Made by a program: the position numbers and the translations under genes
Source: Thalassobaculaceae bacterium
GTDB taxonomy: Bacteria > Pseudomonadota > Alphaproteobacteria > Thalassobaculales > Thalassobaculaceae
Length of the DNA stretch: 32,115 nt
NCBI GenBank assembly: GCA_029212785.1
Contig: JARGOG010000050.1
Location: 1 to 32,115, forward strand
Direction: 5' to 3'
Part shown: piece by piece, positions 30,463 to 32,115 of the stretch
Layout: each line of letters opens with the position of its first letter
Numbering within the stretch: the stretch's first letter is position 1
Notes under the pieces: generated by a model
The model's database searches: none
Told to the model about the DNA's origin: nothing
What the model saw: only the letters and a program-made list of their open reading frames with translations

Positions 30463-31524
30463 ATGACGACTCAGATGAAACCGCCCCCGCCCGCGCTCGC
30501 CGTCGGCGACATCGTGCCGAAATGGCCGCTGCGGCGGCGCAATGGCGAGCCGTTCGATGTCCATGCCGACGCCGAGTCCGGAAACATTCATGTGCTGGTG
30601 TTCCTGGCCGACCCGTCATCGGCGGACAGTCGGGCGGCGGTGGATACCTTCGCCGCCCGGCGTGACGACCTCGACGCGCTCGGCGCCCGGGTTCGGCTCG
30701 TTTGTCCTGGCGACGCGAAGGGTGAATTCCCGTTCCCAATCGTCACCGATCCGGACGGGGTGGCTTCGCGGATGGCTGGGCTTGCCGGCGCGATGGGGAA
30801 GGCCACCGGCGGCGGATCCGCCGTTGTGGTCGTCGCTCCCAATCAGCATGTGGCCGCCCGTATCGGCCCGGACGACGGCAATCCGGCCGAGGCGGTGCTC
30901 GCTGTCATCCGGCCGCTGGCCGAGCGCCGCCGCGCGGGTCTGGTGCCGGTGATGCATCCGCCGGTCCTGATCGTGCCCGACGTGTTCAACGACGCCGACT
31001 GCAAGCGGCTGATCAACATCTACGCCATGACGGGCAACGAGTTCGTCGAGCCTGGCCACAACCAGCTCCAGGGCCGCACCACCGACTGCAAGATGCGGAT
31101 CCCCGATTACGGCCGCGACGACCGGATCGACCACTGGGTCTGTGCGGCCGAGACCAACAACGTGATCGACTCCCGGATCGGCCCGCGCCTGATCCCGGAG
31201 ATCCAGCGCGCCTTCAACTATCGGGTCACCCGGCACGAGCGGTATCGCATCGCCCGCTACGAGGGCGCGCAGAAGGGCTCGAAGCACGGCCATCGCGACA
31301 ACACCCAGCCGGTGGTCGCGCATCGGCGCTTCGCGGTGACCATCAACCTGAACAGCGACGAGTACGAGGGCGCGGAGATCCGGTTCCCGGAGTTTTCCGA
31401 GGCGATCTACAAGCCGCCGGCGGGGGCGGCGATCGTATTCTCCTGCTCGCTGCTGCACGAGGTGATGCCGATGCTGTCCGGCCGCCGCTTCGCCTTGCTG
31501 GCCTTCCTGTTCGGCGAGACCTGA
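30463..31524 (+). CDS. 2OG-Fe(II) oxygenase with an N-terminal redoxin-like domain
   Basis: A 353-residue two-domain protein. Residues 10-152 resemble an AhpC/redoxin fold (GDIVPKWPLRRRNGEPFDVH, then HVLVFLADPSSADSRAAVD), but the place of the peroxidatic cysteine reads ADPSSADS without cysteine. Residues 165-353 are a prolyl-4-hydroxylase-like oxygenase: iron ligands His277, Asp279 (GHRDN) and His332 (LLHEVMP), and 2-oxoglutarate-binding Arg341 or Arg342 (SGRRFALL). The oxygenase half looks active; its substrate is unknown. I start it at ATG 30463, just before the redoxin strand. The open frame extends far upstream antisense to thrS but has no domain content there. It is divergent from thrS and ends 22 bases from the lysozyme-like gene. 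Confidence 0.87.
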   Translation: MTTQMKPPPPALAVGDIVPKWPLRRRNGEPFDVHADAESGNIHVLVFLADPSSADSRAAVDTFAARRDDLDALGARVRLVCPGDAKGEFPFPIVTDPDGVASRMAGLAGAMGKATGGGSAVVVVAPNQHVAARIGPDDGNPAEAVLAVIRPLAERRRAGLVPVMHPPVLIVPDVFNDADCKRLINIYAMTGNEFVEPGHNQLQGRTTDCKMRIPDYGRDDRIDHWVCAAETNNVIDSRIGPRLIPEIQRAFNYRVTRHERYRIARYEGAQKGSKHGHRDNTQPVVAHRRFAVTINLNSDEYEGAEIRFPEFSEAIYKPPAGAAIVFSCSLLHEVMPMLSGRRFALLAFLFGET

Positions 31525-31528
31525 GGCC

Positions 31529-31564
31529 CCGAAAGCGGACTCCGGACTAGGAGTCCGGCTTCGG
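31529..31564. terminator. Terminator-like hairpin between convergent genes
   Basis: Arms of 15 bases (31529-31543 and 31550-31564) pair at 13 positions around a 6-base loop GGACTA. The hairpin spans the stop codon of the minus-strand gene and lies just after the stop of the plus-strand oxygenase. No T-run follows on either side, so efficiency as an intrinsic terminator is doubtful. Confidence 0.45.
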
Positions 31565-32115
31565 CGCGCGCGCCTCCTGGGCGGCCGCCTCGAACTGGTC
31601 GCGGGTCCACATGTGTCGCGCCGGAGCCGGGCCGATGCGCCGGCACTCCTCCGCGCAGATGGCGTAGTCCCGGACCGCCAGACCTTTGCTGCGGAAGCTC
31701 GGAAAACCGCCATAGAGCCCCTGTGGGCCGAGATTGTAGGCCATGTCGAAGGTCGCGAGCTGGACCCGCTTCGGCCAGGCTTCGAAGCCACCGCCGACAT
31801 CCGCGAAGAGACGCCGTGCCGTCGCGAAGATCTCGGCGAACTTGCCCCGGAACAGCGCGGCGGATTGCTCCGGGGTGATTCGCAGGTCCGTCAGGTCCTG
31901 GAACGCGCCTGCCCCATGGAAGGCGTGGTCGGTGGCGGCGGAGACGACCGCGTAGCCAGCCCGGATTGTGTCCGCGCTTGCCGGCTGTCCGCCCTTCTCA
32001 AGCGGGATCGCGGCGGCGGCATCGGCATCGGGGATCAGATGGCCGATGCCGATGGTCACCATGCTGCGGGTGTCCAGGTAGAGCCAGGGGATGTCGCCTT
32101 CGAACCGGCGGGCGA
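31547..32115 (-). CDS. GH24/T4-type lysozyme-like protein (N-terminus beyond the window)
   Basis: 189 residues are visible; the frame runs off the right edge without a certain start. The visible start, ARRFEGDIPWLYLDTRSMVT followed by IGIGHLIPD, aligns with T4/P22 lysozymes. Glu in FEG is the likely catalytic acid, Asp in LDT and Thr in VTIG the partners. The second half has LATFDMAYNLGPQGLYGGFPSF, the second conserved block of GH24-type proteins. It would cleave the glycan strands of peptidoglycan. An insertion between the two blocks (about residues 28-85) lengthens it relative to phage enzymes. No holin or phage genes are seen in the window, but the right side is unseen. An internal ATG at 32062 is too late to be the start, because it would drop the catalytic Glu. 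Confidence 0.8.
   Translation of the reverse strand, partial: ARRFEGDIPWLYLDTRSMVTIGIGHLIPDADAAAAIPLEKGGQPASADTIRAGYAVVSAATDHAFHGAGAFQDLTDLRITPEQSAALFRGKFAEIFATARRLFADVGGGFEAWPKRVQLATFDMAYNLGPQGLYGGFPSFRSKGLAVRDYAICAEECRRIGPAPARHMWTRDQFEAAAQEARAPKPDS

Follow-up and report, generated by a model that had tools for sequence, protein, structure and literature searches.

A pseudo-peroxiredoxin domain fixed to a P4H/PKHD-like 2OG-Fe(II) oxygenase in a family widespread among Alphaproteobacteria

The locus and its two-domain protein

The window, that is, the whole stretch of 32,115 nucleotides of Thalassobaculaceae contig JARGOG010000050.1 that was analysed, carries towards its end an ORF in which a redoxin-like part precedes a 2OG-Fe(II) oxygenase. 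The ORF is a genuine gene, with a strong coding signature (GC of 0.695, 0.472, and 0.876 at the three codon positions) and relatives in two other records that are 81% and 83% identical to it. The features are listed below.

30463..31524, + strand: CDS, pseudo-peroxiredoxin plus 2OG-Fe(II) oxygenase, 353 aa (ORF, Pfam, and relatives)
30490..30933, + strand: predicted peroxiredoxin (BCP/PrxQ-type) fold domain without peroxidatic Cys, residues 10-157 (AlphaFold2, Foldseek/VIA-align, and family profile)
30604..30633, + strand: LADPSSADSR, residues 48-57, at the position of the BCP peroxidatic loop (alignment with 18 stand-alone peroxiredoxins)
30703..30705, + strand: Cys81, the sole Cys of the redoxin part, in a column that is Cys in 3/79 members (sequence and alignment)
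30955..31521, + strand: P4H-like 2OG-Fe(II) oxygenase domain (PF13640), residues 165-353 (Pfam E 1.3e-9; VIA-align Z 16-17 to 3dkq, 4j25, and PiuC)
31258..31260, + strand: Tyr266, expected 2OG-pocket tyrosine, 79/79 (alignment; role from P4H family knowledge)
31291..31299, + strand: H277-R-D279, first two iron ligands, 79/79 each (alignment)
31456..31458, + strand: H332, third iron ligand, 78/79 (alignment)
31486..31488, + strand: R342, expected basic residue for the 2OG carboxylate, 79/79 (alignment; role from P4H family knowledge)

The divergent neighbours on the - strand are taken here, from their translations, to be thrS and infC; when 15 contexts were compared, this thrS/infC neighbourhood was common to the window and to loci L013 and L014. 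At the window locus, there was no Rfam match at gathering score and no promoter-like site, and two terminator-like sites were seen where 1.1 would be expected. A further ORF (31547-32113, - strand) runs off the window edge and resembles a phage-type lysozyme by eye, with no Pfam match for 31550-32062.

The oxygenase half is clearly recognized by Pfam, with 2OG-FeII_Oxy_3 (PF13640) covering residues 263-348 at 39.3 bits, over the cut-off of 27. The initial annotation had credited it with all of its iron and 2OG ligands, and this is borne out: the HxD...H triad and the basic 2OG residue (H277, D279, H332, and R342) are present in 78-79 of 79 members, their roles, and that of Y266, being presumably those in P4H-type enzymes in general. 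In the predicted model, this part has the double-stranded beta-helix fold when compared using Foldseek and VIA-align with 3dkq, 4j25, and 9qn4; VIA-align gave a Z of 17.2 over 164 residues for 3dkq, 16.9 for Pseudomonas putida P4H, and 16.5 for PiuC. A profile of 40 C-domains matched lysyl hydroxylases (E 5e-9), PiuC (5e-8), 3dkq (7e-8), and prolyl 4-hydroxylases (2.5e-5).

Each of these enzyme groups differs from the window protein in some respect. Bacterial prolyl 4-hydroxylases (P. putida P4H, 4j25/4iw3; PF13640 superfamily) share the oxygenase fold, the HxD...H motif, and the Arg and Tyr (Z 16.9 and 16.6), but they match over the oxygenase part only, and the window protein has a redoxin domain in front. 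The PKHD-type hydroxylases (YbiX/PiuC, 3dkq, 9qn4) are similar in fold and sequence profile, yet the window protein stays far under the NCBIfam equivalog cut-off (PRK05467; the best of four models reached 29.1 bits against 143). The oxygenase domain of LH3 and the mimivirus lysyl hydroxylase is the best PDB profile match of the C-domain, although identity in structural alignments is about 20% or less and a redoxin domain replaces the rest of LH3.

The N-terminal part is harder to recognize from one sequence. Searched alone, the window protein matches AhpC-TSA over residues 14-131 (E 0.015) with 15.6 bits, under the Pfam cut-off of 26, and it is absent among the matches listed for this family in the source genome. 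PF00578 is matched at E<=0.01 by 48/79 family members, and the family profile (79-row alignment) finds PDB peroxiredoxins, with 5epf at E 7e-17. AlphaFold2 was run twice: with three sequences, residues ~10-157 were fairly good and the remainder (the C-domain) poor, whereas 12 rows gave a mean pLDDT of 78 for the whole chain (pTM 0.58). Per ten-residue block over residues 11-160, the pLDDT was 50-94 and 57-95 in the two runs, respectively.

The N-domain of the first model led to BCP/PrxQ structures in Foldseek, the best match by VIA-align being M. tuberculosis BcpB (Z 18.5, rmsd 2.2 over 142 residues of the predicted model). The roughly 150 N-terminal residues had been called redoxin-like, with comparison of a predicted structure against AhpC/TSA as the suggested check; that comparison upholds the call, in that residues 10-157 are predicted to adopt the peroxiredoxin variant of the thioredoxin fold. 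A chance resemblance to AhpC-TSA is ruled out by the family profile together with the fold. The domain is therefore like BCP/PrxQ peroxiredoxins (AhpC-TSA, PF00578) in fold and sequence profile, but unlike them in lacking the peroxidatic Cys and the PxxxT/SxxC motif and in being fused to an oxygenase.

Loss of the peroxidatic site and divergence of the domain

The active site was assessed by aligning 115 distinct two-domain members with 18 stand-alone peroxiredoxins encoded in the same loci, the latter being chosen by profile coverage without use of the motif. LADPSSADSR had been read as the active-site segment, and it does align at the peroxidatic loop. The PxxxT/SxxC motif is found in 18/18 stand-alone peroxiredoxins, each with the P, T, and Cys columns as expected, versus 0/115 members, so that the Cys-free loop, whose conservation the initial annotation had proposed to check, is shared by most relatives, and none of those examined contradicts it with an intact site. 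Likewise, the catalytic Arg (before the TFLID-type strand) is present in 14/115 members versus 18/18 peroxiredoxins; at the corresponding place the window protein, by reading, has GGGSAVVVV and no such Arg.

A lone Cys occupies the peroxidatic column in 3/115 members (L038, L109, and L139), which a quick maximum-likelihood tree places in three different regions. L038 reads TQKDPGC where its relatives L170 and L171 (66-67% identical) read TQKDPGA, and this trio looks like a BCP-type site in decay. The Cys is also missing in L147, the sister of L139, and in L042, the sister of L109. The statement that Cys81 is the only cysteine holds for the redoxin part, not for the whole protein, which has five (81, 180, 209, 227, and 328), the last four all in the oxygenase part. 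Judged by these alignments, the redoxin half is predicted to be unable to reduce peroxides in the manner of peroxiredoxins.

Across the 3081 pairs of 79 rows, mean pairwise identity is 22% for residues 10-157 versus 45% for residues 163-353, and the N-domain is the more similar of the two in 2/3081 pairs. Columns at >=55% identity number 19/162 in the N-domain versus 94/191 in the C-domain; by reading, the conserved N-domain columns appear to be fold-core positions and would thus mark no common binding surface. For four distinct sequences of the genus Thalassobaculum (within the compared codons, L013 equals L144 and L014 equals L137), dN/dS is 0.20-0.38 in the N-domain versus 0.04-0.10 in the C-domain, ratios that should be treated as rough since the N-domain dS (~0.5-1.1 within the genus) is high and above that of the C-domain. 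Against the more distant L015, where dS is high, the values are 0.41-0.69 and 0.20-0.26, which suggests weaker N-domain constraint in that direction. Overall, the ratios point to an N-domain retained, loosely, under selection, and the substrate-binding or structural role that had been suggested for it fits this pattern of constraint.

The source genome holds five copies of the architecture, on four tree branches. Three branches hold one copy each (the window gene, L004, or L005), in every case beside copies found elsewhere in the taxonomic family, and the fourth holds both L002 and L003, again with copies from the family, which argues that most copies predate the genus. At L132 10421-11491, paralogue L005 has a ferrochelatase gene 123 nt downstream of it; at L131 9012-9419, an ATPase inhibitor zeta gene is found 42 nt upstream of paralogue L004.

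Spread and gene neighbourhoods

In this family, which is widespread among the Alphaproteobacteria, a P4H/PKHD-like oxygenase carries a pseudo-peroxiredoxin domain as a fixed part. Within the class, 57/289 sampled genomes have a match at E<=1e-10, and a full-length two-domain member is confirmed by profile in 53 of them; of the other four, two (G139 and G205) show only a member truncated at the edge of a contig, and two (G099 and G124) are counted on their matches. Four match rows were left out (G122:C98, G099:C584, G124:C7, and G255:C3). The 115 members are samples of relatives and no census, and they exclude fragments or split matches from L041, L142, L028, L074, L166, L176, L124, and L006. 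Alignment A2 omits L001, which is the window gene, and L062, which has a masked run and is kept among the 115.

Of 13 genomes in the taxonomic family, 11 yield one to five matches at E<=1e-30, and the two without are genomes of 1.5 Mb; three of the matches listed have one internal stop codon each. Named carriers include Thalassobaculum litoreum. In the same genus, each of four larger genomes has two to five copies, and two small ones have none. The latter (G212 and G566) are each 1.5 Mb in one contig and 99% complete, against 4.7-5.6 Mb for three further relatives in the genus.

A sample of the phylum (299 genomes of Pseudomonadota, six candidates scored per genome) gave 21 rows with E<=8.4e-82, all of which span both domains and belong to the same class. 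Outside the class, each row among the matches listed covers one domain only (best 1.8e-20), and a hand count of the phylum matches listed gives at least 164 such genomes with some match. Matches that cover the second half of the query also occur on plasmids of Niveispirillum cyanobacteriorum and Rhizobium leguminosarum, where the genes carry the plain annotation "2OG-Fe(II) oxygenase". At L035, the neighbours are 100% identical to Niveispirillum plasmid genes, and the family profile matches L035 over both domains.

A viral or phage origin was considered and rejected, as the viral and phage matches are nearly all partial and cover the oxygenase part only. Among 53 viral_contigs loci, there is one full-length member (L177) and one match over residues 138-352 (L178); the other 51 are confined to residues 212-353, and three phage records match residues 243-351 only. 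One relative, L235 (4594-5268), is an oxygenase that has no redoxin domain and immediately follows a LeuA-like gene, which shows that not every member requires the redoxin half. The G124 match, in a 231-aa frame that covers the oxygenase part only, is a second candidate of this kind. No description of a redoxin plus 2OG oxygenase fusion was found in the open-licence literature, as covered by titles and abstract openings, large result sets being covered in part.

Close same-strand neighbours (gap <150 nt, >=100 aa) number 35 upstream and 23 downstream, with Pfam run on 26/35 and 5/23, respectively. No operon partner common to the family was found among those scanned, which are mostly unrelated genes; those that the scan or clustering showed to repeat (Mfd, DnaJ, and acyl-CoA dehydrogenase, each twice) do so in each case within a single taxonomic family. 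One neighbourhood pattern does extend beyond a taxonomic family, an ECF-type sigma factor with an anti-sigma-like protein upstream, seen in 7/62 contexts (L130, L134, L135, L136, L230, L262, and L266) from three taxonomic families; L014 and L137 are the same gene among the 62.

The second protein of the pair is related either to an annotated Niveispirillum anti-sigma factor or to the gene in the like position of the source genome, and once, in Niveispirillum, an OpgC gene lies in between. Pfam confirmed the sigma factors in the four loci scanned (L130, L134, L262, and L266) and assigned the second proteins there to no anti-sigma family. When the trait is placed on the tree against other labelled rows, it needs three changes, and 23/500 shuffles gave a number as low. 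In the source genome, one paralogue stands in a row with its sigma pair (L130 7593-10034, contig C19), and the window gene has none. The sigma-pair context is a functional lead for that line only.

Possible role of the fused domain

The nearest solved relatives of the oxygenase, by profile and by fold, are prolyl and lysyl hydroxylases and PKHD-type enzymes, from which we infer that the substrate is a protein side chain. The oxygenase half would bind Fe(II) and 2OG and then hydroxylate this substrate. The family members are probably intracellular protein hydroxylases of Alphaproteobacteria, and the dead domain probably helps the hydroxylase to locate its protein target. The fold is retained, catalysis is lost, divergence is fast, and the source genome has several paralogues of old standing; together these fit a docking module that would have its own partner in each paralogue. 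The redoxin domain would be a pseudoenzyme whose divergence would match each paralogue to its own partner or substrate. We therefore lean, with moderate confidence, towards a protein hydroxylase with the pseudo-peroxiredoxin as its recognition or assembly module.

There are precedents for parts of this arrangement. A Pseudomonas 2OG oxygenase is reported to hydroxylate EF-Tu (PMC4682802), and collagen P4H is described as working together with PDI, a protein with domains of the thioredoxin fold (PMC9676403). The collagen enzyme is comparable in that a thioredoxin-fold protein is coupled to a P4H-type oxygenase, but the PDI beta-subunit is a separate subunit, is not a peroxiredoxin, and works in the animal endoplasmic reticulum, so that the pairing is an analogy and not homologous.

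Some of the evidence counts against a recognition module: L235 does without the redoxin part, few N-domain columns are conserved, the N-domain looks less constrained in comparisons with L015, and the neighbours indicate no common pathway. Peroxiredoxins dimerise readily, and a passive scaffold that stabilises or dimerises the oxygenase without any say in substrate choice is a less likely alternative. High divergence is what one would expect if the fold alone matters, and the few conserved positions do look like fold core; retention in nearly all members over such divergence is not obviously expected of a scaffold, yet L235 again manages without it. Metabolic genes adjoin members at several loci, as they might if the substrate of the oxygenase were a small molecule or a nucleic acid, with the redoxin domain being incidental. 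We regard this as unlikely, given that the closest relatives by profile and by fold belong to the protein hydroxylases or the PKHD-type enzymes and that no metabolic partner among the neighbours scanned recurs beyond one taxonomic family.

The sigma/anti-sigma-like pairs beside some relatives provide a signal-response setting, in which the redoxin domain might sense a ligand or redox state and thereby switch the hydroxylase, responding to peroxide or a thioredoxin-like partner without Cys chemistry of its own. With the peroxiredoxin pocket residues (P, T/S, and Cys) lost and no sigma pair at the window gene, a sensor seems unlikely. Still active peroxidase chemistry through another cysteine is scarcely credible: Cys81 does lie within the redoxin part, but its column is rarely Cys, the most Cys-rich N-domain column is Cys in 11/79 members, and 35/115 members have no Cys within their first ~165 residues. 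An active redoxin of this type was rejected on these counts.

To our knowledge, targets have been identified for few bacterial protein hydroxylases. A family present in two to five copies per larger genome of the genus, with what looks like a targeting pseudoenzyme, gives a starting point in the search for hydroxylated proteins and a possible link between oxygen, iron, or 2OG status and cell control. It also represents a peroxiredoxin fold turned into a non-peroxidase domain across a bacterial class. The recognition-module reading could be carried further, into a conjecture to which we attach only slight probability: the dead peroxiredoxin domains of these paralogous hydroxylases would be interchangeable targeting modules, one protein per paralogue, possibly docking on live peroxiredoxins, or on the partners of these, through the old dimer interface, and the line with ECF sigma and anti-sigma-like proteins would be an oxygen-, iron-, or 2OG-dependent transcription switch.

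Three loci may be recorded for their arrangement. At G525:C42:151211-153264, there is a tandem pair of family genes. L176 has a family gene with an in-frame stop and, at the same locus, another full-length family match. At L041, an ORF for a 1-Cys-type peroxiredoxin lies on the opposite strand at the same locus as a family member that is cut by the contig end.
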